A DNA stretch of 11,735 bases, from the NCBI GenBank assembly GCA_026981635.1, contig JALSIF010000261.1, positions 1 through 11,735 on the forward strand, written 5' to 3'. This DNA comes from JALSIF01 sp026981635 [NCBI: bacterium]. GTDB lineage: Bacteria > 4484-113 > JALSIF01. Positions 2 to 11,735 of the stretch are shown in pieces. A program made the position numbers and the translations under genes. Under the pieces are notes generated by a model. That model was not told the DNA's origin. It worked only from the letters and a program-made list of their open reading frames with translations, and searched no databases. Numbering within the stretch: the stretch's first letter is position 1; each line of letters starts with the position of its first letter.

Positions 2-394
2 CGGACCGCCCTGCTCATCTCTGTCCCTCCCCTGCGGCTTGACCCCACCCTGAGGCCACCCATTCGGGGAGCAAGGGAGCTGCTACTCAACCAGTCCCAC
101 CACCACCGGGTCGCCACCCCGGAGGAGCTATCCCCTCCCCTGCGCCGGCTAGTGGAGGGAGAGGTGACCGAGCGGGGGCTTAGCCAGGCGGTGCTGGTCG
201 GAGTTGCCGGTCCCCTCTTGCCCTACTCCCTCCACCAGGCCACCCCCACCGCCGACCTGGGCTGGGTGGCGGTGCGCTACCTGTGGGACGCCCCCCAGCC
301 GGTGGGCAGACTGCTGCTCCTCCTGCGGGTGCCGGGGGAGGAGGGGGTCTGGCTGGTGCCGGTGGGACCCTGGTCACAGGGAAGCGGTTCCTAG
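2..394 (+). CDS. C-terminal part of an unrecognised protein (gene begins outside the window)
   Basis: An open frame runs from base 2 to the TAG at 392-394, giving at least 130 residues with no in-frame stop, so the gene very probably starts upstream of the window. A GTG at 152 could start an 80-residue protein, but no clear ribosome-binding site sits before it and coding character continues further upstream. The translation is rich in Leu, Val, Pro and Gly. It contains a short DLGWVAVRYLWD stretch and a Leu/Val-rich run near the end (LLLLLRVPGEEGVWLVPVGPW) that looks like beta structure rather than a membrane helix. Codons end mostly in G or C, as expected for this genome, and the other two forward frames give Pro/Arg/Cys-rich shadow proteins. 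It lies 47 bases before the HIT-family gene and may share its transcript. I do not recognise the family. Confidence 0.5.
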   Translation, partial: RTALLISVPPLRLDPTLRPPIRGARELLLNQSHHHRVATPEELSPPLRRLVEGEVTERGLSQAVLVGVAGPLLPYSLHQATPTADLGWVAVRYLWDAPQPVGRLLLLLRVPGEEGVWLVPVGPWSQGSGS

Positions 395-441
395 GGCGCT
401 ATCATTCAGCCGGAGAGTCCAGCGGCGAGGAGGCAAGCGGC

Positions 442-867
442 GTGAACCAGGAAAAGACCGTCTTCCAGAAGATCATTGACGGGGAGCTGCCCGCCGAGAA
501 GGTGTGGGAGGACGACAGGTGTATCGCCATCCTGGATCTCTTCCCCGCCAACCCGGGTCATGCCCTGGTGATCTCCAAACAGCCCTACCCCGACCTATTC
601 TCCATTGACGAGGAGACCCTCTGCCACTGCCACCGGGTAGCCAAGCGGCTGGCCCGGGCCATCAAGCGGGCCACCGACTGCGAGGGAATAAACATCCTGC
701 AGAACAACGGCTCGGCCAGCGGCCAGATCATCTTCCACTACCACATCCACATCATCCCCCGCTACACCGGCGACGGACTCCAGATCCCCAAATCCGGCCC
801 CAAGGCGGACGAGGACTACATGCGCGAGTGGGGGGAAAAGATCCGCAGTCAGCTCAAGGGTGTCTAG
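442..867 (+). CDS. HIT-family nucleotide phosphohydrolase/transferase (histidine triad protein)
   Basis: The 141-residue protein has the histidine triad HYHIHII at residues 99-105 (His99, His101, His103). By family knowledge the middle His101 would be the nucleophile that forms a nucleotidyl intermediate. The N-terminal FQKIIDGELPAEKVWEDD, the NPGHALVISK segment (residues 37-46) and the ILQNNGSASGQ segment (85-95) are the usual fold landmarks of the Hint/HinT branch, cytosolic hydrolases of purine nucleoside phosphoramidates and related adenylylated compounds. I chose the GTG at 442 because GAGGAGG ends eight bases before it. The frame stays open back to 283, but that extension is low-complexity Gly/Ala/Pro and would make the protein far longer than the family norm of 110-145 residues. 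The exact substrate cannot be told. No functional link to N2O respiration is evident; it shares only strand with nosL. Confidence 0.93.
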   Translation: MNQEKTVFQKIIDGELPAEKVWEDDRCIAILDLFPANPGHALVISKQPYPDLFSIDEETLCHCHRVAKRLARAIKRATDCEGINILQNNGSASGQIIFHYHIHIIPRYTGDGLQIPKSGPKADEDYMREWGEKIRSQLKGV

Positions 868-915
868 CCCCCACCGCGGATCGGAGGAGTGAGGAAACCA
901 TCAGGGAGGGGAAAT

Positions 916-1509
916 ATGCGGAACCGATGGGTGGTCTTCGGCGCGATCCTTGTTGTACTGCTCACCTCTTCCTGTCCACGCCAGGCGGACAAGGAAACGG
1001 GAGGGCCATCCCCTGCCGCTGAGACGGGCGGGCTGGCGGCGGTAGTGACGGAGGGTAAGTGCCCCGTCTGCGGCATGCCCTACGCTACCGCTTCCACCGA
1101 GGTCCATGCTGGCGGGCGCAAATTTGACAGCTTCCCCTGCTGGGTGGAGTACGCCGACAAGAACGGCCTAGATCCAGCCAAGGGAGAGATCCTTGATTTT
1201 CCCACCCGGGGAGGGGAGCGGAGCTTCGTTCCCCTCATCCAGGCCTTCTATGTGGAGGCGGAGTTTCTGGAAAGCTCCATGCCCCCCTTCCTGGCCGCTT
1301 TCAAGGACCCCACCGAGGCGGAGCGGTTTGCCGCCGAGCAGCAGAGCCAGGTGATCACCTTTGACCAGGCCCTGAAGATCTCCCGCAACTGGTTCAAGAA
1401 ACACGGCTACCGGGGCCACCAGGGCAAGCCGATGGATATGGGTGATATGGAAGGCAAACCCATGAACCACCAAGACGCCGACCAGCAGGGACGAAGCGGA
1501 GACGGATAG
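916..1509 (+). CDS. nosL: NosL-type copper-binding lipoprotein with Met/His-rich tail
   Basis: The 197-residue protein starts with a signal peptide (residues 1-19) ending LLTSSC. Cys20 is a plausible lipidation site, although the -3 residue is Thr rather than Leu. The NosL hallmark CPVCGM lies at 49-54, followed by a conserved-looking FDSFPCWVEYADKNG stretch (70-84, Cys75). NosL proteins are outer-face copper chaperones that deliver Cu(I) for the CuZ centre of nitrous oxide reductase. The C-terminal tail (163-185) is unusual: it contains GKPM twice plus MDMGDM and NHQ, with five Met and three His that could bind Cu(I). I preferred the ATG at 916, preceded by GGGAGGGG. A GTG at 889 in the same frame has its GGAGGA directly abutting the codon, which is too close. 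The gene converges on nosY and so must be transcribed separately from the nosZ operon. Confidence 0.85.
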   Translation: MRNRWVVFGAILVVLLTSSCPRQADKETGGPSPAAETGGLAAVVTEGKCPVCGMPYATASTEVHAGGRKFDSFPCWVEYADKNGLDPAKGEILDFPTRGGERSFVPLIQAFYVEAEFLESSMPPFLAAFKDPTEAERFAAEQQSQVITFDQALKISRNWFKKHGYRGHQGKPMDMGDMEGKPMNHQDADQQGRSGDG

Positions 1510-1526
1510 CTCTACCGGAATCCGTC
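1501..1526. terminator. Short inverted repeat spanning the convergent nosL and nosY stop codons
   Basis: GACGGAT (1501-1507) and ATCCGTC (1520-1526) form a perfect 7-bp inverted repeat with a 12-base loop, covering the TAG of nosL and part of the TGA of nosY. Its position between two convergent genes suggests a bidirectional transcription end, but neither side has a clear run of T, so an intrinsic terminator is not proven. Confidence 0.3.
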
Positions 1527-2379
1527 AGATCAGGTCGCGCCGGCAAAGCAGGAGGGAACTTGACCCACCGGGCACCAGCGCCCAGAGGACCAGTGCTCCG
1601 GTTAGGGTAGCGATGGCGGTGGAGTAGCCGCCCAGCGCCTCAGCAAGCTTTGCTCCCGCCACCCCGAAGATCTCCTCCCCGCCCAGGGCCATCAGGCTTG
1701 CCACCCTGACCAGGTCAATGGGGTTTAGGAAGATGGAGTACATGAAGAGCTGGTTGGCCTCGCGCTCACTGAGCACCGAACCAAAGCCCAGCACAGCGAG
1801 GTCGTAGAGGGCGACCAGGAAGAACCAGACCAAAACCCCCAGGGCATAGCCCGCCATGGAGCGTCGAGTGACCACCGCGCAGACCATCCCCAGGCCCACG
1901 CTGGCCGCCGCCATGAGCAGGGAAAGGAAGGCAAACAGGATGTAGCCCCCCGCATCGGCTCCCCCCTGGCGCATGGCGATAACCGCCCCGGTGAGGGAGA
2001 AGGCAAACACCATCCCCAGCGCCATGGCCAGACACTGGCCGATGAACTTGGCAAAGATGAGCCGCGGTCGGGAGAGGGGCTGGGAGAAGATGAGCTCCCC
2101 CGCCCGGTCGCGCTGGGTGAGGGAGTGGACCCCGGAGAGCATCCCCATCAGGGGAACCAGGTAGATGACCAGGTTGAGCAGGCTAACCGTGGTGCGGCTA
2201 AACCCCATAAGGCCGGTGCGCTGGCTAACCGAAATGCCGAACCAGGCCACCCCAATGAGCAGGGCGGCAAAGACCAGGGCAAAGCCCATCACCCACTGGT
2301 CGCGAACCATGAGGGTTAGCTCAAACCAGACGATGTCCCTGGTGCGGAGCCGGGGAGACGCCATCGCCTTACTCTCCAC
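1525..2379 (-). CDS. nosY: NosY-type ABC transporter permease
   Basis: A protein of about 284 residues with roughly six hydrophobic segments (near 30-49, 62-82, 112-136, 146-168, 175-198 and 254-277) and a C-terminal CRRDLI, a common ending for ABC-2-type permeases. The SLTQRDRAGELIFSQPLSRPR segment (residues 86-106) matches the cytoplasmic coupling region typical of NosY-like permeases. NosY with NosF forms the membrane transporter that works with periplasmic/external NosD in maturing the CuZ site of nitrous oxide reductase. For the start I chose GTG at 2379: AGGAGG lies six bases before it inside nosF, giving an 11-base overlap with the nosF stop. ATG at 2364 (MASPRLRTRD), four bases after that stop, is the main alternative. 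An ATG at 2406 would need a 38-base overlap. It is the last gene of the minus-strand operon. Confidence 0.88.
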   Translation of the reverse strand: MESKAMASPRLRTRDIVWFELTLMVRDQWVMGFALVFAALLIGVAWFGISVSQRTGLMGFSRTTVSLLNLVIYLVPLMGMLSGVHSLTQRDRAGELIFSQPLSRPRLIFAKFIGQCLAMALGMVFAFSLTGAVIAMRQGGADAGGYILFAFLSLLMAAASVGLGMVCAVVTRRSMAGYALGVLVWFFLVALYDLAVLGFGSVLSEREANQLFMYSIFLNPIDLVRVASLMALGGEEIFGVAGAKLAEALGGYSTAIATLTGALVLWALVPGGSSSLLLCRRDLI

Positions 2380-3307
2380 TTTGGGCCTCCTCCACCACCT
2401 GGTCAATCAGCTTGAGGTAAAGCTTTTCCAGCCTGCCCGGGATCACCTCCAGGGACCTCACCCGAAGCCCTCGCCGCTCAAGCTCGCTCACCACCCGGGC
2501 GCGGCTCTCCGGGTCGGCCACCACCAGGTAGCCCTTGGCGTTGGGTGAGACTTTGCGTGCCCCCGCCTCACGGGCCACCCGCACCACCTCATCGCCATCC
2601 CCCTCCACCTCAATGCGCAGTTGCTCCATTTCTTCCACCTGCCGGTCAAGCTCCTGCCGGTCAAGATCACCCACCACCTTCCCCCCACAGAGGAAGATGA
2701 TCCGGTCGGTAAAGCCCACCAGCTCATCCAGCAGGTGGGTGGCGATGATGATCCCATGGCGGCCACCGCTTCTGGCGTGGGTCTCCTTGAGGAAGTCAAA
2801 GAAGTCCTTGGCCGAGCGGGGATCAAGCTGGGCGGTAGGCTCATCCAGCAGCAGAAAGTCTGCCTCGGCAAGCAGCGCTATGGCCAGGGTGGTGCGCTGG
2901 GCTAGGCCGCCAGACAGCTCCCGGCAGAGCTTGTCGGCCTGCTCCAGCTCGTATAGCCCCACCGTGCGCAGCACCTCCTCGGTGCGCTCCGGGGGAAGCC
3001 CCCGCAGGCGGCGGTAGAAGTCCACCACCTCCCAGACGCTGAGCTCGGCGGGAAGCTCTGGCCTTTGGGGCAGGTAGCTTATGTGGCGCAGGGCCAGGGA
3101 GGGCCGTTGAAAGGGGTCGTGACCGAATACCCTCACCCTCCCCCGGGTGGGCCGGATCAGGCCGGCACAGAGCTTAAGCAGGGTGGACTTGCCACTTCCG
3201 TTGGGTCCCACCAGGGCCACCACCCGGCCCGGCTCAAGGGAAAGGGTGATCCCCTCCACCGCCACTACCTGCCGGTAGCGCTTGGTGAGCCCCTCAAGCA
3301 CAATCAT
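2369..3307 (-). CDS. nosF: NosF-type ABC transporter ATP-binding protein
   Basis: A 312-residue ATPase with all ABC motifs: Walker A GPNGSGKST (34-42), Q-loop Gln81 in YLPQRP, signature LSGGLAQR (131-138), Walker B FLLLDEPT (151-158), D-loop AQLD (159-162) and switch His191 in IIIATHLLDE. The roughly 85 residues after the nucleotide-binding domain form a small alpha/beta extension often seen in this subfamily. It should power NosY and couple ATP hydrolysis to NosD during CuZ assembly on the outer face of the membrane. The ATG at 3307 overlaps the nosD TGA as ATGA, so translation is probably coupled, and it also has its own AGGAGGAG five to six bases upstream. The nosF end in turn overlaps the preferred nosY start. 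The assignment to NosF, rather than a generic drug-type ATPase, rests on the nosD and nosY neighbours. Confidence 0.92.
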   Translation of the reverse strand: MIVLEGLTKRYRQVVAVEGITLSLEPGRVVALVGPNGSGKSTLLKLCAGLIRPTRGRVRVFGHDPFQRPSLALRHISYLPQRPELPAELSVWEVVDFYRRLRGLPPERTEEVLRTVGLYELEQADKLCRELSGGLAQRTTLAIALLAEADFLLLDEPTAQLDPRSAKDFFDFLKETHARSGGRHGIIIATHLLDELVGFTDRIIFLCGGKVVGDLDRQELDRQVEEMEQLRIEVEGDGDEVVRVAREAGARKVSPNAKGYLVVADPESRARVVSELERRGLRVRSLEVIPGRLEKLYLKLIDQVVEEAQSGE

Positions 3308-4719
3308 CGCTTTCTCCTCCTAAACCGGCCGCCTATTCCCCGCGGCCTGGCCTGCCGTCCCACCAGCAAGGCTAGCAGAATCCCCAGCCCGAGCATCAAC
3401 ACCCCCGCCGCCGGACTGGGTTTGGTCGCCTTGCGCTGGGTCTCCAGCGCTACCCGGGCTACGGAGGTAGGCCGCATGAGGGGGGCAGGGTCCACGGTGG
3501 GCTGGGAAAAGATGATGGGAAAGACCTTCTCCGCACTGGCCAGCGCCTTGGCTCCCAGGCTGAAGAGGTACAGCCGGGCCAGGGGCCTCAGGCGCTGGAG
3601 CTCCTCAAAGGCGCCGCTCAGGTGGTGGGGCACATCTCCCACCCCGTCAAGGTCCAGGTCGTAGCCCAAGTAGTCACTCCAGTAGTTACCCCGTCCTTCC
3701 TTGGCCCAGATCACCCCGTCAATGGGTCCGTCCACCGGCTGGACCGAGGTGTAGTTGCCGATGAAGTCGTTCTCGGTGAAGTAGACCTCACCACCACCGG
3801 TGAAGGCCAGCACTCCGACATCATTTTCAGCAAAGAGGTTCTTTATAAATTCTGAGTCATATACTAGATCAAGCTGTATCCCAATATAGTTTCCGACTAC
3901 AACATTCTTAGATGCCTCAATATTCTTTGTTTTAAGAAGCACTAGTCCACTGGATAGGTACGTATCCCGGTTAAAAAGGATTTGATTCTGATTGAGTTCA
4001 ATATAATCTGAGTACATCATCACTCCACCTACTGTTGATCTATAGATTAGATTTCCCTCAAACTTGTTGTAGTCTGAGTACATGTAGTGGAGTCCATAGC
4101 GCAGGTCGTGAATACGGTTATTAATTGTGGTGATTCTATTGGCATGATCAAAGTATATCCCGTCTCTAACTAGACTAATGTCGTTTCCATGTATCGTCAC
4201 TTCCTCAGTATTCCAGAGGTAGATTCCATTTCCCTTCTCATCATCGGGAAGGCCCTTCTTCCCAACAATTACGTTGCCTAATATCTGATGCCCCTTTCCC
4301 CCCTCCACAAAAATACCGAAGCGGGCCTCAAGCAGGCGGTTGTCTCTGATGGTGATGCGGTCCCCCTTGATATGCACGCAGGAGGCGTTGTGCATGAGGT
4401 CATCTCCCGTACCCACCACGGTAAAGCCGGAAAGTTCAACCCCGTTGGCTAATAGCTCCACCGTGTGGGTAGAGCCACTGTTCTCAATCACTGGCCCGCC
4501 TCGCCCAACCAGCCTGAGGCCGGGGACCTTAACCACCACATGTTCCCGGTAGCGCCCCCCATCCACCACCACCACATCGCCCGGACCGGCCGCCTCCACC
4601 GCCGCCTGAATAGAGGAAAACTCCCCACCCTGCGGGGAAACGAAGATGGTCCTGGCCTGAAGTTGAGCAGGAAAAAGGATTAGGCACAGTGTAGCGGTTC
4701 CAATAACCAATCTTCCCAC
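3304..4719 (-). CDS. nosD: NosD, copper-site maturation beta-helix protein with C-terminal membrane anchor
   Basis: From GTG 4719 the protein has 471 residues. Residues 1-22 form a Sec signal peptide (MGRLVIGTATLCLILFPAQLQA). Then comes a right-handed parallel beta-helix of carbohydrate-binding/CASH type (about 25-340), seen as repeated G-I-x-x, N-x-I and N-x-I-x-x-N rungs, followed by the NosD landmarks GNYWSDYLGYDLDLDGVGD and VDPAPLMRP. NosD receives copper from NosL and helps build CuZ in NosZ. Unusually, the chain continues into a hydrophobic helix (437-454) and a very basic tail ending RFRRRKR, so it would be anchored with the tail in the cytoplasm. Codons for about residues 135-293 are AT-rich, unlike the rest. 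I preferred GTG 4719, five bases after GGGAGG. GTG 4746 in the same frame has AGGAGG 14 bases away. It overlaps nosF by four bases. Confidence 0.92.
   Translation of the reverse strand: MGRLVIGTATLCLILFPAQLQARTIFVSPQGGEFSSIQAAVEAAGPGDVVVVDGGRYREHVVVKVPGLRLVGRGGPVIENSGSTHTVELLANGVELSGFTVVGTGDDLMHNASCVHIKGDRITIRDNRLLEARFGIFVEGGKGHQILGNVIVGKKGLPDDEKGNGIYLWNTEEVTIHGNDISLVRDGIYFDHANRITTINNRIHDLRYGLHYMYSDYNKFEGNLIYRSTVGGVMMYSDYIELNQNQILFNRDTYLSSGLVLLKTKNIEASKNVVVGNYIGIQLDLVYDSEFIKNLFAENDVGVLAFTGGGEVYFTENDFIGNYTSVQPVDGPIDGVIWAKEGRGNYWSDYLGYDLDLDGVGDVPHHLSGAFEELQRLRPLARLYLFSLGAKALASAEKVFPIIFSQPTVDPAPLMRPTSVARVALETQRKATKPSPAAGVLMLGLGILLALLVGRQARPRGIGGRFRRRKR
3841..4320. other. Low-GC segment inside nosD
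   Basis: By hand count 190 of 480 bases are G or C (about 40%), with single 60-base blocks as low as 33%. The adjacent blocks at 3721-3840 and 4321-4440 are 53-62%. On the coding strand the segment uses A/T-ending synonymous codons such as CTA, ATA, GTA, TCA, ACA and AGA, whereas the flanks use G/C-ending codons. The reading frame stays open and the protein pattern continues, so this is a composition break rather than a gene break. Confidence 0.75.
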
Positions 4720-4775
4720 CCTGACCTCCCCTCTCCGACTTGGCACCCGTTGCCTGGATTCCTCCTAACTCCTTC

Positions 4776-5450
4776 TCAATTAGGCGGTGCAGCTTGGGTC
4801 TGGGCTGCTCCCTGACGTTGGCGCTTCAGGTAGGCTATGCTCTCGTAGAGGAAGGCGATAAGGATCAGTCCACCAGCAATAAAGAGCATCCAGCTGCCAT
4901 GCCCGGGTACGCTGGTAACGGTGAAGTTGGCGATCTTCTTGGTGCCAAATATGGGTGGCATAAATGGGTCAACTTTGATCGGGGCATCTGGAGCCAGATT
5001 GTGCCCGTAATACCAAAGCTTGTGATAAAAGTCATAAAAGGAGAAGCCTCCGAAGTAGAGCATGATCACCAGCGCATCAATCATGGTCTTAAACTCGCCC
5101 AACACGGCCGCCCTGAGTAGCAGGATGACGATAATGCCAAATCCCAAAGGAAGCCAAAGAAACTCCTTAAAGTCCTCTGCCACGATGGGGTCCATCCCAA
5201 TGTAGTGATTGAGGGCGTTGATCTCACGGATGTCGTCACGGTTGGGGACATCTCCTCCCTCCAGTCGGTTGGCGTAAATGTAGAGCCTAAGCGGAGGATC
5301 CTTGTACATCTGGGCCTCAAACTCCATGAACCAGAGGGGCTTGTTAAAGGCCCCATAGGCGATGAGCACCGCCGCGATTATCAACAGAAGCCTTCCGACC
5401 AGGCCAAAGCTTGAGTGGAGGTATTGGTTGATCCTCTCAAAGAAGCCCAT
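4776..5450 (-). CDS. NosB-like four-helix membrane protein of nos clusters
   Basis: A 224-residue protein with four hydrophobic segments (about 18-36, 97-117, 123-139 and 186-206). An exported-side loop of roughly 60 residues follows the first helix and carries EINALNHYIGMDP (76-88). Helix 3 leads into YDFYHKLWYYGHNLAP (139-154). His82, His143, His150 and His184, together with the Met residues, could bind copper or haem, but that is speculation. It sits between nosZ and nosD, the place where, from memory, Sec-type (clade II) nos clusters often carry nosB, a polytopic membrane protein of unsettled function; the symbol is therefore only positional. The ATG at 5450 is preceded by GGGGAG nine bases away. 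A strong GC hairpin lies between nosZ and this gene. It ends 56 bases before the chosen nosD start, and its base composition is lower in GC than the bc-type genes. Confidence 0.8.
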   Translation of the reverse strand: MGFFERINQYLHSSFGLVGRLLLIIAAVLIAYGAFNKPLWFMEFEAQMYKDPPLRLYIYANRLEGGDVPNRDDIREINALNHYIGMDPIVAEDFKEFLWLPLGFGIIVILLLRAAVLGEFKTMIDALVIMLYFGGFSFYDFYHKLWYYGHNLAPDAPIKVDPFMPPIFGTKKIANFTVTSVPGHGSWMLFIAGGLILIAFLYESIAYLKRQRQGAAQTQAAPPN

Positions 5451-5545: not shown

Positions 5546-7468
5546 CTAGCGCTTCGGCTTCACCACCAGATAGCCCTGCATCTCCTGGTGAAGTGCAGAG
5601 CAGAAGTTGGTGCAGTAGTAGGGGTACACTCCCGGCTTATCAGCCTTGATCGTTACATGCTTGGTTTCACCGGGGTCAACAACCACATTGACGTTGTAAC
5701 CGACGATCCCAAAGCCGTGAAGCTCATCGGTGGTTTGCTCTATGTTGGTCAGGTGGAAGATAACAGTATCCCCCTCATTCACCTCAACCTCTGTCGGGTA
5801 GATGGTTGACCTGACCAGGGCAACCCATACCTCTACTGTGTTCGGCCCAGTGCGCTCAATCCGGGCTTGCTCAATGGATGTGATCTTGTTGGGATCCTTG
5901 TTGTCCTTCTCCAGGTCGTAGACCTCAATGACCTTTGGCTCCAGCTCCGATGCTTTGATGGAGATGGCATAGTGTGGCTCAGGCTCAGTAAAGGCATCAT
6001 AGAGCAGGCGCATCTTCTCACCCGAAATATCAATGAGTTGGCTGGACTCGGGCTGGCTGGGTCCTACCGACAGATGACGCCCGTGGGAGAGCTTGTTTAG
6101 AGCGATTACATACTCCCCGTAGGGCTCCACCGTATCCCCACCGGGAACCAGCAGGTGGCCAATGTTGTAGCTCACCTTGATGGTGTCCACCACCTTCCAC
6201 TCCTCAAGCTTCCACTTGGCGATGGCACTATCAATGAACAGCGAGGTGTAGGCGTAGCCCTTGTTGTCAAATTGGGTGTGGAGCGGGCCCAGCCCAACGT
6301 TTACCTCAGCCTCCTTGACCGAGTCGTAGTTGAGCACCGGGATGTCAAACACGGTGTCGGTGAAGTCCTGGTTCTCAATCGCCTTGAGGATCTTCTCAAA
6401 GTTGAACACGGTGACGATGGAGGCAAGCTTTCCGCTGGCCACAATCCACTTCCCGTTGGGTGCCACATCTACCCCGTGGGGGCTCTTGGCAGTAGGGATA
6501 AAAAAGATGGCCCCCTTTATGTCTTTAGGCTCAAGCACCCTGACACCGTTCAGCACCCGGCCCAGGTTGGGGTTGTTTTCCAGGATCTCATCTACCTTCT
6601 TCCAGTTGACTAGCAGCGTATAGTCGCGCTCGTTCTGGGAGGCGGTCACCTCCAGTTTACCGGTGGCCATCTCCGAGTTGTAGGAGGTCCAGAAGCCCCA
6701 GCCATGGGAAATCCCATGACCCGTCGCCCCCAGATCCCAGTCAAAGGGTGGAGTGACGATCTGCCAGGGGGTAGACATCTTTCCCGTCTCTGGATCTATC
6801 CGCACAGCACCCACTACGCCCTTGTACTTTTCTTTGTAGTCCGAGACAGGGGCGTAGGTGCCAATGGGGAAGGGGATGGAGAAACGGGTTCCATAGAGTA
6901 TGTACTCACTGTTGTCGGTGATGAAAGCTGAGCAGTGGGCTCCTGCCACGTTGGGGAGGTCAATTATCTCCTTGGTCTTGAAGTCCCTCAGGTCAATTCT
7001 CGCTATCCGATTGTTTGCGTTGTCGTTTACAAAGAGCCATCTGCCATCGTACTTCCCGTTGGTCTTGGACAGGTTCGGGTGGTGAACATCGCCCCAGGTG
7101 AAGCCACCCAGCATCTTTTTGGTCTCGTCGTCAAAGCCGTAGCCGGTTGACGGATAGGGAGTGAAGACCGGGATGGTGGCGATGTGGCGCATGGAGGGGA
7201 TGCCAGCGACAAAGACGTTGCCCGAGTGGCCTCCGGAATAGAATAGGTAGTAATCGTCTTTTTCTCCCGGTGGAACGTAGGTAGCTTCAGCCGCCGAGAC
7301 CATTCCTCCACCCCCCGTTGACGGCCGGGTTGCGGTAGGAGCTTTCCCCCGCTCTACCTTCTCCGCCCGCTGACAACTTGCCGCATAGGCGGCTATGAGC
7401 ACCGCCAGCGCGAACAGCCCCAGGATCAGGCCCATCCTGACCCACGCTCTCTGGTTCCTGTTGCCCAT
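5546..7468 (-). CDS. nosZ: Nitrous oxide reductase, Sec-exported (clade II) type, probable lipoprotein
   Basis: A 640-residue copper enzyme that reduces N2O to N2 outside the cytoplasmic membrane. The N-terminal seven-bladed propeller carries seven histidines where CuZ ligands are expected: His129 and His130 (DVHHP), His178 (GAHC), His331 (SPHG), His396 (GPLHTQF), His438 (NIGHL) and His499 (EPEPHY). The C-terminal cupredoxin domain holds CuA: His584, Cys619, Cys623, His627 and Met630 (YYCTNFCSALHQEMQGY). The signal region has no twin-arginine motif. It has a hydrophobic stretch (12-30) followed by AASC (29-32), a permissive lipobox, so the enzyme may be lipid-anchored via Cys32; if not, the stretch is a Sec signal or uncleaved anchor. 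The ATG at 7468 is seven bases after AGGAGGT. The first gene after a 234-base control region, it heads the nos maturation genes and would take electrons from the upstream bc-type module. Confidence 0.97.
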   Translation of the reverse strand: MGNRNQRAWVRMGLILGLFALAVLIAAYAASCQRAEKVERGKAPTATRPSTGGGGMVSAAEATYVPPGEKDDYYLFYSGGHSGNVFVAGIPSMRHIATIPVFTPYPSTGYGFDDETKKMLGGFTWGDVHHPNLSKTNGKYDGRWLFVNDNANNRIARIDLRDFKTKEIIDLPNVAGAHCSAFITDNSEYILYGTRFSIPFPIGTYAPVSDYKEKYKGVVGAVRIDPETGKMSTPWQIVTPPFDWDLGATGHGISHGWGFWTSYNSEMATGKLEVTASQNERDYTLLVNWKKVDEILENNPNLGRVLNGVRVLEPKDIKGAIFFIPTAKSPHGVDVAPNGKWIVASGKLASIVTVFNFEKILKAIENQDFTDTVFDIPVLNYDSVKEAEVNVGLGPLHTQFDNKGYAYTSLFIDSAIAKWKLEEWKVVDTIKVSYNIGHLLVPGGDTVEPYGEYVIALNKLSHGRHLSVGPSQPESSQLIDISGEKMRLLYDAFTEPEPHYAISIKASELEPKVIEVYDLEKDNKDPNKITSIEQARIERTGPNTVEVWVALVRSTIYPTEVEVNEGDTVIFHLTNIEQTTDELHGFGIVGYNVNVVVDPGETKHVTIKADKPGVYPYYCTNFCSALHQEMQGYLVVKPKR

Positions 7469-7702: not shown

Positions 7703-8914
7703 CTACTCGGGAAGCTTTTTGCCCTGTTGGTGGAGATCGTAAGCACGTTTGAGAAGCTCCACTGCAAGCTTTCGTTCATCCTCGGATAGCCGAATTCTTG
7801 TCTCAAGCACCATCCTCATGGTTCCGATGGGATTCATGAGAAACTCCTCAAGATCCATTCCAAATCTCTTCCGCACATCCTCAACAGCCAGAGACAGGTC
7901 AGGTCCGATGTCCGCAGGGCTGTCAATTCCAAAGCTGGAGATGTCGTGGCAAGCATTACAACCCTTTGCTACGAACCATTGCCCCGGATCCTTCTCAAGG
8001 TCAATACTTAACGCGCCCGCTTCCTTCTGCTTGATCTCAGCCCCCGGTCTAGCCTTGTTAAAGCCTGCAGTAACCGGTATATATTTGGGAGGAATTCCCC
8101 ACTCTCGCCAGCTCATAACGAGCATGGCCAGGGCCATAGCCTCTCGGTCGGTGAGGTTGAAATTAGGCATTTCCGTTCCCGGGCTGACCCGCTTGGGGTC
8201 TTTGAGGTGCTCAAACTGCCAGTTCAGCATGGAGCGGATACCTTGGACAAAGGTGTAGTCAAAGGCTTCGGGGGATTTGTCCCCCTCATAGGTCAGGTCT
8301 GGTCCTATGGTCCCACCAATTCCGTCAACCGCATGGCACTGGAGACACCCTTTCTTCACAAACAGCTCTTTGGCAAGGTTGATGTAGTTCATTCCCTCCA
8401 CCTCCTTCTCAAAGAGGTGGCAGGAGTTACACCTTATCTCCAGCAAGGCCCTGGAGTCATCCAGCGGATAGCTCTGAACTAACTCCGGCAGGTCAAGAAC
8501 CGGCTCCAGCCAGAACTTAACCAGCCCGTGGGCCTCTTCTTTCTCCAGTGCCCATCCCTGACCGCCATGACAGGTGGTGCACCCATAGACCTCAATAGGG
8601 TGCTTCTCAAGGATCCCCTTGGGATGGGAACGGTAGGGCTGGGGTGCATCCTCCAACCCCTCCCAGGTAACTCCAGCATGACAGGTCATGCATCTGTCCA
8701 CCACACCCAGCTCCGGATTCCAGATCTGCTGAATCCCAAACTCAATCTTCTCCGCCACCTCCGGACCCCGGGTCTCATAGATGTACTGATAGAACCCCTG
8801 TTGGTAGCGCTGCCACTCCGAGTACTGCTCCTTGTAGGTAAGCCACACGCTAAGCAACACTACGGCAAGACCGGCAACCATCAGCCACACGACGTCCATC
8901 CGGTAGTTCTTCAT
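7703..8914 (-). CDS. Membrane-anchored pentaheme cytochrome c
   Basis: A 403-residue protein with an N-terminal uncleaved anchor (about residues 8-26) and five CxxCH haem c sites: CMTCH (75-79), CTTCH (112-116), CNSCH (162-166), CLQCH (190-194) and CNACH (319-323). The first three lie in a compact N-terminal part. The last two belong to two class I cytochrome c-like domains with GPDL motifs after the haem (204-207, 337-340). PGTEMPNF (246-253) offers Met249 as axial ligand for haem four, and Met366 or Met368 may serve haem five. It follows the cytochrome b gene by 13 bases and occupies the place of cytochrome c1 or f, so it probably takes electrons from the Rieske protein and passes them to NosZ CuA. 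I chose ATG 8914, after GGGAGAGGA. An in-frame ATG at 9010 would run deep into the cytochrome b gene and lacks support. Confidence 0.92.
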   Translation of the reverse strand: MKNYRMDVVWLMVAGLAVVLLSVWLTYKEQYSEWQRYQQGFYQYIYETRGPEVAEKIEFGIQQIWNPELGVVDRCMTCHAGVTWEGLEDAPQPYRSHPKGILEKHPIEVYGCTTCHGGQGWALEKEEAHGLVKFWLEPVLDLPELVQSYPLDDSRALLEIRCNSCHLFEKEVEGMNYINLAKELFVKKGCLQCHAVDGIGGTIGPDLTYEGDKSPEAFDYTFVQGIRSMLNWQFEHLKDPKRVSPGTEMPNFNLTDREAMALAMLVMSWREWGIPPKYIPVTAGFNKARPGAEIKQKEAGALSIDLEKDPGQWFVAKGCNACHDISSFGIDSPADIGPDLSLAVEDVRKRFGMDLEEFLMNPIGTMRMVLETRIRLSEDERKLAVELLKRAYDLHQQGKKLPE

Positions 8915-8927
8915 GGCTATCCTCTCC

Positions 8928-10283
8928 CTAGTACTTGACGGGCGGAGCCTCCCAGGTTTGCCAAGGCCAGTACCACTCCCAGAATGGCCCCCTGAGATAG
9001 GAAGCGACAAGGATCAGAACCATGATCAGAAGCGAGATGATGATGAAGGTCAGGTTCTGCCACCTGCGTGAGCGATGAAACCAGACCCCCACCGCTTCCA
9101 CCGGGGAGCGGTCTAGCCAGGGCCAAACCGCCGCCCAGAGAAGAAGCAAACCGGGGATCAGGATCCCTCCTACTAGGCCACCGCTGATGGCAAAACCTGT
9201 GCCGAACTTGATGGTAGTGATGGTGACCAGCTCCTGCAGCCAGAGGAAATACCAGGGAGCCTTGGCCGGGTTGGGAGTGACCGAGGGGTTGGCCGGGTCC
9301 TCCAGCGGGGCAGGAATGAGTTGGGTGAGCACCATGGCCACTGCCAGGGTTGCCAGCCCCACCAGCAGCACCCTACGCACCAAGATAGGAACCGCATGAA
9401 CCGTCTGCTCCTCGGTGTCCACCATCACCTGCTTGACCATGGGGGTCTCACCCTTCACCAGTCCCATGATCATGTAGTTCTTGCGCTTGGCAGGCTTAAC
9501 CTCCTTCTTCCTCTCCTCCAGCGCCAGGTGGTCCTCGCAGGCCAGCCCCCCGTCCTTTCTAATCCGCCACATGTGCCAGGAGAAGAGCAAAAGAACCAGG
9601 GCGGGAAGGAAGAAGACATGCAGGGTGTAGAAGCGGATCAGGGTGTTTTGGGAAATCTCGTTTCCTCCGAGCAGGATGAAGCGGATCTGCTCTCCCACCA
9701 GTGGAGCGTTGCGGGCAATCTCGGTGCCAACCGTTATCGCCCAGAAGGCCAGCTGGTCCCAGGGCAACAGGTAGCCAGTAAAGGAAAGGAGCAAGGTAAG
9801 AAGTAGCAGTGCTATACCAATCAGCCAGTTCAGGGGCCGGTTCTGGCGGGCAAACACCCCGTTTCTGTAGGCGGCGGTGAGAAAGACCCGCATCATGTGA
9901 AGGAAAACCACCCCCACCATGAGGTGAGCGCTGATCCGATGGAGGTTTCTTAGGTAGCTGCCGTAGGGGATTACATACTCCAGATCCTTGATTGATGCGT
10001 AGGCCCGCTCGGTGGAGGGAACGTAGAAGAACATGAGGATGACCCCGGTCACCGTAAGGATGAGAAAGAGGATGGCCGAGATGGTGCCCAGCCAGAGGGA
10101 GTAGGACCAGGAGAGGGAGCGGTGGCTAACCCGGTTGGGAAACCAGTGGAGCAGGAAGTTGACCACAATGGCATCCCCCTGCTCCTTTTTGCTGCGCGGC
10201 CACCACGACCAGACCACCGATCTCCAGTCAATCTTTAGCAGACCAGCCAACTCTCTTAGGACTCTTGTGCCGGCTCTCGCCAT
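8928..10283 (-). CDS. Cytochrome b of a bc/b6f-like complex (b6 and subunit IV domains in one chain)
   Basis: A 451-residue quinol-oxidising membrane subunit. Four-helix part: His115 and His129 in helix B, His222 and His237 in helix D. The 14 and 15 residue spacings match cytochrome b6 rather than mitochondrial b. LPWDQLAFWA (173-182) is also strongly b6-like. A basic cytoplasmic linker of about 60 residues leads to a subunit-IV-like part with three helices (about 302-324, 366-388, 411-429). The Qo-site motif reads APWY (342-345) instead of PEWY, after NPAK. The N-terminal region lacks the cysteine that binds haem ci in b6f. The protein ends in a Trp-rich tail. ATG 10283 follows GGAGGAAGGAGG; the gene starts 33 bases after the Rieske stop and ends 13 bases before the cytochrome c start, so the three form one transcription unit. 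The likely substrate is menaquinol, by inference. Confidence 0.95.
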   Translation of the reverse strand: MARAGTRVLRELAGLLKIDWRSVVWSWWPRSKKEQGDAIVVNFLLHWFPNRVSHRSLSWSYSLWLGTISAILFLILTVTGVILMFFYVPSTERAYASIKDLEYVIPYGSYLRNLHRISAHLMVGVVFLHMMRVFLTAAYRNGVFARQNRPLNWLIGIALLLLTLLLSFTGYLLPWDQLAFWAITVGTEIARNAPLVGEQIRFILLGGNEISQNTLIRFYTLHVFFLPALVLLLFSWHMWRIRKDGGLACEDHLALEERKKEVKPAKRKNYMIMGLVKGETPMVKQVMVDTEEQTVHAVPILVRRVLLVGLATLAVAMVLTQLIPAPLEDPANPSVTPNPAKAPWYFLWLQELVTITTIKFGTGFAISGGLVGGILIPGLLLLWAAVWPWLDRSPVEAVGVWFHRSRRWQNLTFIIISLLIMVLILVASYLRGPFWEWYWPWQTWEAPPVKY

Positions 10284-10316: not shown

Positions 10317-10955
10317 CTAGGTGAAAAACCTCCAGCCGATCTCCACCTTCCTCCGCTTGTCAACGGTTAACGAGCCATCATCCGGGGAAATGAAGACCTC
10401 GTACCAATCAAGCGGCCTAGGAGCAGGTCCAGCGTAATTGGTGCCATCCCCATAAAACTTTGAGCCATGGCATGGGCAGTGAAACTCCCAGTGTTCCTCT
10501 ATCATCTCCCGGCCTCCCCGCCCCCTGACCATCTTGGGCTTCTCTAGGGGGACATACTTCACCGTGCAGCCCAGGTGGGTACAGATGGCAGATATGCAGT
10601 AGAAACGGGTTTGCTTAGTGGCCTTATCTACTTCTTTGAACACGAAAGCCCGCTGCTCCGGAATGAAGTTGACCCCCTCGGCCACCTCCTCCGGCTTTCC
10701 CACCTTGAAGCGCTTGTTGGGCTCATAGAGCACCCGGGGAACGAAGGAGAGCAGGGACAGCCACCCCTGCCAAACCACCCCCAGGAAGACCGACAGGCCG
10801 GTGGCCATCCCCAGCCAGCGTCGGCGGGTAAAGAGGGGGCGGTCAATCTGCTCAAAGTCGGGCGCTACCTCACTTGCCACCTTCTTCGGCAGACTCACCT
10901 GCCCAGCGCCCCGCTCCTGCCCACTTTCCTCAGGCGGGGACTTCAACCTCTTCAT
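10317..10955 (-). CDS. Rieske 2Fe-2S protein of the bc/b6f-like complex
   Basis: A 212-residue protein with Rieske boxes CTHLGC (125-130) and CPCHGS (160-165). Cys125, His127, Cys160 and His163 would bind the 2Fe-2S cluster, and Cys130 and Cys162 would form the disulfide. TRRRWLG (43-49) before a hydrophobic helix (about 50-72) is a twin-arginine export/anchor signal, as is usual for Rieske subunits that fold in the cytoplasm. The N-terminal cytoplasmic tail of 42 residues is longer than in most homologues. The protein should carry electrons from the Qo site of the cytochrome b to the pentaheme cytochrome c. The ATG at 10955 follows GGAGG nine bases upstream and lies inside the preceding flavoprotein gene, a 26-base overlap, so translation of the two is probably coupled. 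The insertion between the two cluster boxes (residues 131-159) is basic and rich in Lys, Arg and Glu. Confidence 0.95.
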   Translation of the reverse strand: MKRLKSPPEESGQERGAGQVSLPKKVASEVAPDFEQIDRPLFTRRRWLGMATGLSVFLGVVWQGWLSLLSFVPRVLYEPNKRFKVGKPEEVAEGVNFIPEQRAFVFKEVDKATKQTRFYCISAICTHLGCTVKYVPLEKPKMVRGRGGREMIEEHWEFHCPCHGSKFYGDGTNYAGPAPRPLDWYEVFISPDDGSLTVDKRRKVEIGWRFFT

Positions 10956-11735
10956 ACCACATCACCTCCATCGTCATGGCCTCAGTGGGGCAGCGGATGG
11001 CACAAAGCCCACAGCGGATGCAGAGCTCATCATCCTTGAGCATCACCGAGACGGGCCCGCCATCCGATGCCCCCGCCTCTTCCACCAACCTCCTCACCGT
11101 CTCATCGTCGCAGAGGATCTCAAGCTCCATCAGATCCACCAGCTTTAGGCAGTCGGTGGGGCAGACATCCACGCACCGGTTACACATCACACACAGGTCC
11201 GGGTTGTAGACCGTCTGGATATGGCAGGAGAGACACCGCTCCGCCTGGCGCCTGGCCTCCTCCGGCGAGTAGGTCTCTTCCACCTCGGAGATGCCAGTGC
11301 GTCGCTCAAAGTCCACCGTGGGGGGCGCCTTGCGCGGGTAGTTCTCATAGCCCTCCGGCTGCTGGTAGCGGTTGATGGGGAGCTTCTCAAAGATGAAGTG
11401 GACCTCGTGGCGCACCTCCCGCTTGCGCAGGTAGGAGTCGATGGAGAGGGCGGCCCGCTTCCCGTCGGCCACCGCATCAATGATGTTCCTGGGGCCGAAG
11501 GCCACATCACCGCCCGCAAAGACCCACTCGGCGGTGGTCCTCAGGGAGTCGGGATCAACCTTGATGGTCTTTCGCGGGGTGATCTCCACCCCATCCTCCG
11601 GCTTTAGGAAGGAGAGGTCGGCGGTCTGGCCGATGGCCAGAATTGCGGTGTCGGCCTCAAACTCCTCTACGATCTCCTCGTCATACTCCGGGTTGAAGCG
11701 GCCCTCCTCGTCAAACACCCGCTTCACCCTAACCA
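10930..11735 (-). CDS. C-terminal part of a GltD-like FAD/NAD(P)-binding oxidoreductase with two 4Fe-4S sites
   Basis: The frame is open to the right edge, so the N-terminal half with the first dinucleotide-binding motifs lies outside. The GTG at 11727 is an internal Val, not a start. Residue numbers below count from it. ADTAILAIGQTAD (25-37) and EWVFAGGDVAFGP (67-79) are the late FAD-binding segments of the glutamate synthase small-subunit-like family. The C-terminus carries two ferredoxin sites, CVMCNRCVDVCP (179-190) and CIRCGLCAIRCP (236-247), preceded by a CLSC pair (165-168). Such proteins shuttle electrons between NAD(P)H and iron-sulfur partners in the cytoplasm; they need not make glutamate. 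Its stop overlaps the Rieske gene by 26 bases, which ties it to the quinol-oxidising complex. The physiological donor or acceptor is unknown. The CLSCH string is not a haem site in a cytoplasmic protein. Confidence 0.85.
   Translation of the reverse strand, partial: VRVKRVFDEEGRFNPEYDEEIVEEFEADTAILAIGQTADLSFLKPEDGVEITPRKTIKVDPDSLRTTAEWVFAGGDVAFGPRNIIDAVADGKRAALSIDSYLRKREVRHEVHFIFEKLPINRYQQPEGYENYPRKAPPTVDFERRTGISEVEETYSPEEARRQAERCLSCHIQTVYNPDLCVMCNRCVDVCPTDCLKLVDLMELEILCDDETVRRLVEEAGASDGGPVSVMLKDDELCIRCGLCAIRCPTEAMTMEVMWYEEVEVPA

Follow-up and report, generated by a model that had tools for sequence, protein, structure and literature searches.

The window analysed here, 11735 bp in length, is the entire contig G000:C261 of a draft genome (1.75 Mb in 317 contigs, 85%-complete). 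On its minus strand, NosZ, the Sec-dependent nitrous oxide reductase (5546..7468; 863.9 bits for TIGR04246, cut-off 625), is followed by a 224-residue membrane protein (4776..5450) which lacks a Pfam or NCBIfam match and which, judging from position and similarity among nos loci, we take to be NosB-like, by NosD (3304..4746; PF05048, with TIGR04247 above cut-off), by the ABC ATPase NosF (2369..3307; PF00005) and by the ABC permease NosY (1525..2406; PF12679). A NosL-like copper chaperone (889..1509, plus strand; PF05573 with 25.4 bits, cut-off 24) is encoded convergently to the operon, and the gene of a HIT-domain protein (283-867, plus strand) adjoins nosL. Sec-type NosZ, NosD, NosF, NosY and NosL identify a clade II nos operon, where the matches of NosF and NosY are to ABC transporters in general and their names derive from context, that is, from their relatives in nos loci. 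Upstream of nosZ, and likewise on the minus strand, are located the genes of (i) a membrane-anchored pentaheme cytochrome c with five CxxCH motifs (7703..8914; start ATG and membrane anchor placed by eye), (ii) a b6-like cytochrome b with a fused C-terminal domain, one chain of 451 residues (8928..10283), (iii) a Rieske [2Fe-2S] protein of 212 residues (10317..10955; PF00355), and (iv) the C-terminal 267 residues of a GltD/NfnL-like, putatively NAD(H)-dependent FAD oxidoreductase with a ferredoxin tail (11733..10930), whose frame is open to the window end. The initial annotation of this flavoprotein had recognized its coupling to the Rieske gene and left the nos operon unmentioned.

Since the window is a complete contig, the 5' end of the flavoprotein gene was cut by the assembly. 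The remaining fragment comprises the C-terminal part of a Pyr_redox_2 domain (residues 21-91) and two Fer4 stretches (Pfam), and it matches GltD-like NCBIfam families, the best being PRK12771 (residues 6-256) with a score under the cut-off, as is expected for a fragment. The earlier assignment as a GltD-like FAD/NAD(P) protein is thus confirmed, and so is the overlap of 26 nt between its reading frame and that of the Rieske protein, which starts at 10955: the 3' end of the flavoprotein gene includes a Shine-Dalgarno sequence, GGAGGTGAT (10961..10969, minus strand), located 5 nt ahead of the Rieske ATG. The corresponding overlaps in the relatives L035, L036 and L037 amount to 14 nt each. As to the two 4Fe-4S sites that had been noticed, both are indeed present in the window, namely a first Fer4 motif at residues 175-197 (11143..11211, minus strand; cysteines in 106 or 107 of 107 aligned relatives) and a second at about residues 232-255 (10969..11040, minus strand; cysteines in 106/106 or 107/107). 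Full-length relatives, however, contain more: alignment of up to 107 of them reveals 17 near-invariant cysteines, six N-terminal and eleven C-terminal, the former lying in the half that is absent from the window. These would provide room for four Fe-S clusters, the number also contained in published models of complexes from Kuenenia (PMC12954380).

The initial annotation had further proposed to obtain the full gene, and this was achieved in part. A profile of relatives matches 294 N-terminal residues of the same protein type at the end of another contig of this genome, C145 (L128:1-882, minus strand). The C145 half is 59% identical to a nos-form relative from genome G008, and the window half is also 59% identical to the same G008 gene. 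As the genome otherwise exhibits a single complete second copy of the flavoprotein, the two pieces very probably belong to one gene, of which ∼86 residues fall between C145 and C261 and are in neither contig. Upstream on C145, two genes for binding-protein-dependent transport permeases lie on the same strand, separated by a 96-nt gap from the flavoprotein gene, and the nearest encodes an unrelated peptide-transporter permease; transcription may read through from there into the flavoprotein gene. The gap contains a 5-bp inverted repeat, GTGAC-TAAG-GTCAC (L128 911-924), 28 nt ahead of the frame's first start codon, which we take to resemble a Crp/Fnr-type site. In four relatives from the same class, a reading frame of 159-195 residues overlaps the flavoprotein start by 4 nt (the one scanned, in L036, encodes an Rrf2 regulator), and the nos operon comes after the flavoprotein. 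Membership in a separate upstream operon, named in the initial annotation as what would refute its view, is not borne out: the order in these relatives runs from a small gene through the flavoprotein into the nos operon, and on C145 the upstream gene codes for a permease.

How regularly the flavoprotein gene adjoins those of Rieske protein and cytochrome b was assessed across genomes, as the initial annotation had advised. A flavoprotein profile search of 289 genomes (the source genome, nine relatives from its class, and the remainder spread over the domain) yielded 121 rows at E <= 1e-70, of which the 22 strongest (E <= 7.1e-203, from 21 genomes) are without exception located beside a cytochrome b gene on the same strand. 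Eleven of these 22 were in the search profile and had been picked after their neighbourhoods were known; the 11 outside the profile are cytochrome b-linked as well (11/11). The other 99 rows include the window itself, C145, two linked pieces from G238, a linked locus in G071 in which the flavoprotein comes last, and a contig-end fragment (G039:C226), while none of the remaining 93 was found by eye to lie <=5 kb from cytochrome b among the matches listed. Within the class, a strong flavoprotein match is present in four of the nine relatives and five are without one. From a pattern scan of named genomes, the best 80 of 328 relatives were kept, a set ranked by similarity and not random, and 79/80 of these loci contain Rieske and/or cytochrome b genes within about 4.5 kb. 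With at least 2.5 kb of downstream sequence (69 of the best 80), 68 loci have both within 4.5 kb downstream, and the 69th, L107, has both about 4.3 kb upstream. Shorter flanks are available for 11 loci, 10 of which have at least one of the two genes; L049 has neither, over 2.4 kb on the downstream and about 8.9 kb on the upstream side. The flavoprotein gene of L049 (8887-10893) is intact and of the nos form, and the gene downstream of this unlinked copy appears by eye to be glycoside hydrolase-like. The order flavoprotein, Rieske protein, cytochrome b recurs far beyond chance, and both a chance overlap and a separate operon are rejected in view of this linkage (22/22 and 79/80) and of the permease gene upstream on C145.

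Considering the best 80 of 328 together with the rows of the tree described below, hosts of the module belong to Acidobacteriota, Myxococcota (Anaeromyxobacter), Ignavibacteriota, Bacteroidota, KSB1, Verrucomicrobiota, Chloroflexota, Armatimonadota and Zixiibacteriota, and include the anammox genus Scalindua; among them are named strains of Anaeromyxobacter, with the nos form, and Geothrix, with an octaheme form. Cytochrome b is split in many of the linked relatives, whereas it is a single chain in the window. At one divergent locus (L044 5582-9474, in G056), genes for a NapC-like seven-heme protein and for a 648-residue protein without Pfam match are found directly upstream of the flavoprotein gene.

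Among solved structures, to which this comparison is confined, the Rieske protein of the window is closest to two crystal structures of Rieske proteins from Kuenenia, 9rk4 (Kuste4569) and 9rk3 (Kustd1480; PMC12954380), with E-values of 7.8e-19 and 7.6e-16 for a single-sequence search (next best 4.2e-9); in a profile search, the best pair scores 3.7e-37 and 3.7e-32 (next best 4.3e-25). It shares the second-sphere pair of Ser and Phe with Kustd1480, and the Ser is reported to characterize the Rieske proteins of Kuenenia that have a high potential (PMC12954380). This Ser is present in 92/92 linked Rieske motifs found (of 108 loci, 16 yielded no motif), with Phe as the partner in 69 and Tyr in 23.

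In AlphaFold3 models of the Kuenenia complexes, a new heme b is predicted where two cytochrome b chains meet, at His43 in Kuste4571 or at His62 in Kustd1481 (PMC12954380). We infer that His46 of the window cytochrome b (codon at 10146..10148, minus strand) is the counterpart of these residues, and thus of the predicted ligand of the central heme, from its position in the chain. The corresponding alignment column holds His in 102/102 flavoprotein-linked rows (from 109 loci, seven of which had no cytochrome b; two pairs of rows are duplicates) versus 9/41 controls, which were hand-picked among the matches listed, plus L034, and hence are not random. Likewise, Lys and Asp of the WRIRKD motif (Lys243-Asp244; 9552..9557, minus strand) are found in 100/100 linked rows with letters, and Arg242/Lys243 may correspond to the Arg and Lys residues at the heme propionates in the Kuenenia models. 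The position of the cysteine that would bind heme c_N, which we identified by reference to b6 sequences, is occupied by Trp in the window; the cysteine occurs in 3/102 linked cytochromes b versus 23/41 controls. One reading, suggested by these sequences, is that in most flavoprotein-linked complexes electrons would leave via the central heme instead of heme c_N. The quinol-site motif is APWY, not PEWY, and is invariant in 12/12 aligned sequences.

As a flavoprotein-specific marker, His46 had to be discarded. Among the nine controls with His, L167 likely reflects a misalignment, L170 adjoins a divergent GltD-like gene (L187), and seven constitute a sister group around which no GltD gene was found in the 9.5 to 16 kb stretches examined. 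Since His46 is present also in this GltD-free sister group, the proposed central heme is not specific to the flavoprotein. All seven sister cytochromes b contain the heme c_N cysteine, as do 8/8 of the controls with both His46 and an RKD or RRD motif, one of which is L170. Near three sister genes (L186, L190, L192) a protein with a ferredoxin-type motif is encoded, and near two (L186 and L192) a large reading frame of 987 or 1161 residues that is molybdoenzyme-like by eye; possibly, these loci represent another dedicated-reductase version of the module. In L189 (9584-10042), a 152-residue protein with four ferredoxin-type Cys motifs is encoded two genes upstream of the Rieske protein of a sister complex without flavoprotein.

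NosZ is located downstream in 23 of the best 80 (of 328) flavoprotein loci. In the 289 genomes, NosZ scores above cut-off in 26, and the module lies directly upstream of it in six (G000, G001, G004, G007, G008, G183); in G015, the module and the nos part are on two contigs, each ending in cytochrome b. With 7/26 NosZ genomes having the module, five of them (source genome included) from the oversampled class, most clade II nosZ genes are without it. A quick tree of 105 flavoproteins unites all 29 rows with a nos label in one set of 37 rows (SH-aLRT 100), and six changes of this label are required on the tree. Eight rows of the set are unlabelled, namely the one from G015 (L039), four on contigs ending before the nosZ position (L050, L054, L068, L073), the unlinked L049, L040, where a HAMP/GAF protein follows, and L140, where the 0.7 kb remaining after cytochrome c contains no nosZ. 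The source genome encodes a second module (L032, G000:C107, 230-9364), which consists of flavoprotein, Rieske protein, cytochrome b and tetraheme c, with two further c cytochromes and then a cbb3-type CcoN/CcoO-like pair, the latter with scores under the curated NCBIfam cut-offs. Within this genome, one kind of module is found with two dedicated reductases of strong acceptors, NosZ and a cbb3-type oxidase. That the module replaces complex I was considered and rejected, with NuoD detected in 21/22 genomes with the module. NuoD was not found in the source genome, 85%-complete, where a search with PF01512 was also negative; since NuoH and antiporter-type subunits, that is, the membrane arm of complex I, are present, this likely reflects an assembly gap.

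An AlphaFold2 model of the relative L048 (mean pLDDT 73.0, pTM 0.76), used for fold comparison only, suggests that the bifurcating NfnABC/StnABC enzymes are the nearest solved folds (9n5v: Z 30.9, rmsd 2.9, 440 residues; 8oh5: Z 30.5, rmsd 3.9, 452 residues), and it matches 5jfc with Z 28.5 and rmsd 2.6 over 401 residues. The Pyr_redox_2 domain is complete in the full-length relative that was scanned with Pfam. At the nucleotide site, where an NfnL-type NADPH site has an Arg pair behind the second Rossmann strand, Tyr-Arg-Arg is found in the five PDB alignments shown, which represent NfnABC, StnABC and NfnL types and do not include GltD or DPD, and the relatives mostly exhibit Cys/Ser-Leu-Glu, with Glu in 103/106 relatives with letters and another residue in the divergent L044, L134 and L187. 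An acidic residue at such a site usually indicates NAD(H). The conserved Glu makes NAD(H) the rather probable substrate in preference to NADP(H); the Arg/Glu argument as such is weak, since the residue of the window protein itself is among those missing between C145 and C261, and since 9bov and 9n5v, both folds with Arg, have titles that describe NAD(H) complexes.

That the flavoprotein assembles with Rieske protein and cytochrome b as one complex appears, from conserved gene order and coupling, highly probable. We lean, if slightly, towards the more specific proposal that it constitutes the cytoplasmic-side NAD(H) subunit of an anammox-type b6f-like complex which is dedicated to N2O respiration and bifurcates quinol electrons. 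Quinol, presumably menaquinol, would be oxidised at the P side; one electron would pass via the Rieske protein and the pentaheme cytochrome c to NosZ and N2O, and the other from heme b_P to heme b_N, to a central heme b with His46 from each of the two cytochrome b monomers as ligands, and through the Fe-S chain and FAD to NAD+. The net effect would be that quinol electrons are bifurcated between N2O and NAD+. The initial annotation had offered coupling of NAD(P)H to the quinol pool, or bifurcation with that pool, as possible roles, and bifurcation, proposed before for Kuenenia (PMC12954380), is the leading proposal here as well. With regard to direction alone, we consider the chance of bifurcating NAD+ reduction to be about even, and that of NADH input to be appreciably lower. 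A bifurcating complex requires a strong sink at high potential, with which NosZ and the cbb3 oxidase both agree. For heme b_P of Kuenenia, a published estimate of the potential reaches down to -475 mV.

The same machinery might instead run in the other direction, such that NADH delivers electrons through the flavoprotein to heme b_N or to an N-side quinone site, which would turn the complex into an NADH:N2O oxidoreductase with a Q-loop or an assisted Q-cycle; we regard this as a serious, albeit less probable, explanation. Anaeromyxobacter, Geothrix and many Acidobacteria, which are chemo-organotrophs, are among the hosts, NAD(H) is suggested by the Glu that replaces Arg in the nucleotide site, and in the source genome one copy of the module stands with NosZ and the other with a cbb3-type oxidase, each a strong acceptor. 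Moreover, RuBisCO was found in 0/7 genomes with the nos form, which not only agrees with NADH input but also makes the need for reverse electron flow to fix CO2 weaker in this form. On the other hand, the second-sphere Ser suits the high-potential Rieske protein that is wanted for bifurcation, and NADH input has been argued to waste energy where proton-pumping NADH dehydrogenases exist (PMC12954380); NuoD is present in 21/22 module genomes. Quite improbable is that the electron partner is ferredoxin or another low-potential carrier, docking at the C-terminal clusters, and not NAD(H): although these two clusters are of ferredoxin type, and the sister complex of L189 is accompanied by the protein with four ferredoxin-type motifs, the scanned relative has a complete Pyr_redox_2 domain, the nucleotide-site Glu is conserved in the relatives, and the clusters are better explained as a wire to cytochrome b, as in the AlphaFold3 models (PMC12954380). 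That the gene encodes a separate soluble enzyme of glutamate synthase or Hdr type can be dismissed as exceedingly improbable, for membership in the GltD family and the one unlinked copy (L049) are outweighed by the adjacency in 22/22 strongest rows and 79/80 of the best 80 named loci, by the eleven conserved cysteines of the C-terminal tail, and by neighbours that comprise no GltB or Hdr subunit among the ten window proteins scanned with Pfam and transporter permeases upstream of the C145 half (L128).

New in the present analysis are the spread of the module over many phyla, the existence of one clade wired to NosZ, and the second copy located by a cbb3-type oxidase in the source genome. It is tempting to speculate, and we do so tentatively, that such widespread complexes bifurcate from menaquinol to NADH, with the high-potential electron going to N2O (or, for the cbb3 copy, to O2) and the low-potential electron passing via the central heme b and the Fe-S/FAD port. 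If this were true, N2O respiration would yield NADH directly in such bacteria, and bifurcation would change the energy yield and redox balance expected for these N2O reducers. Anammox bacteria, for whose NAD(P)-linked Rieske/cytochrome b complexes bifurcation is so far a proposal, are hard to handle. The occurrence of the module in cultivable Anaeromyxobacter and Geothrix and in nos operons of several phyla renders the proposed bifurcation testable, and its spread allows the predicted central heme b to be checked independently, on evolutionary grounds.

Comparison with known systems places the module as follows. Canonical bc1 and b6f complexes, which have no N-side flavoprotein, are not matched by a window in which the flavoprotein gene is coupled to that of the Rieske protein; the earlier statement that classical bc complexes lack such a subunit holds, and the flavoprotein is a partner of the Rieske/cytochrome b complex. 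NfnABC/StnABC (9bov, 9n5v, 8oh5) and NfnI, soluble ferredoxin/NAD/NADP enzymes, share the GltD-type FAD and NAD(P) core with an N-terminal Fe-S region; unlike these, the window protein possesses a ferredoxin tail and adjoins Rieske/cytochrome b genes, and the Arg pair is replaced by Leu-Glu in most relatives. ExtP of the selenite/tellurite operon is the best NCBIfam match of the cytochrome b (244 bits, under the curated cut-off of 290), but ExtP and ExtQ are separate models (NF040969/NF040970) and the window protein is fused. Clade II nos clusters for which a figure legend lists genes of a Rieske protein (S), cy-b, cy-c and an Fe-S protein (PMC11096178) resemble the window in NosZ type, the NosB-like protein, NosDFYL, Rieske protein, cytochrome b and cytochrome c, yet the flavoprotein is not named there, as far as the excerpted text goes, in the electron path to NosZ, nor did a search of open-licence literature yield a paper naming it in nos electron transport. 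Octaheme-type operons of Nitrospina, Kuenenia and Methylomirabilis encode a Rieske protein, a split b6-like cytochrome b and an octaheme cytochrome c (PMC3578206), and relatives of the octaheme form show this order too, downstream of the flavoprotein gene; the excerpt of that report names no flavoprotein, and the window differs by its fused cytochrome b and five c hemes.

The closest known counterparts are the two Rieske/cytochrome b complexes of Kuenenia stuttgartiensis, Kuste4569-4574 and Kustd1480-1485, which include an NAD(P) oxidoreductase subunit (Hauser et al. 2025, PMC12954380). For these, it has been proposed that quinol electrons bifurcate between NAD(P)+ and an acceptor of high potential, with credit given to Kartal et al. 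(PMC12954380). Hence, the flavoprotein is not the undescribed energy-coupling partner for which it had been named the best candidate: the same type of subunit and the proposed bifurcation are both part of that account. In contrast to the Kuenenia complexes, the window has (i) a cytochrome b that is not split, (ii) five c hemes versus six or eight, (iii) no heme c_N cysteine, (iv) no HAO-like octaheme protein that we could see, and (v) an operon that runs into nosZ; the heme c_N cysteine is also absent from the anammox relative L098, whereas the Kuenenia models contain heme c_N (PMC12954380). Shared by both are the NAD(P) oxidoreductase with its Fe-S chain, the b6-like cytochrome b, a multiheme cytochrome c, an N-terminal His as the proposed ligand of a central heme, and the Rieske protein, for which the Kuenenia pair is the closest match in the PDB, with the Ser/Phe pair common to the window and Kustd1480. 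If the tentative reading given above proved true, the anammox complexes would amount to a single branch within a general type of complex III that is linked to NAD(H).
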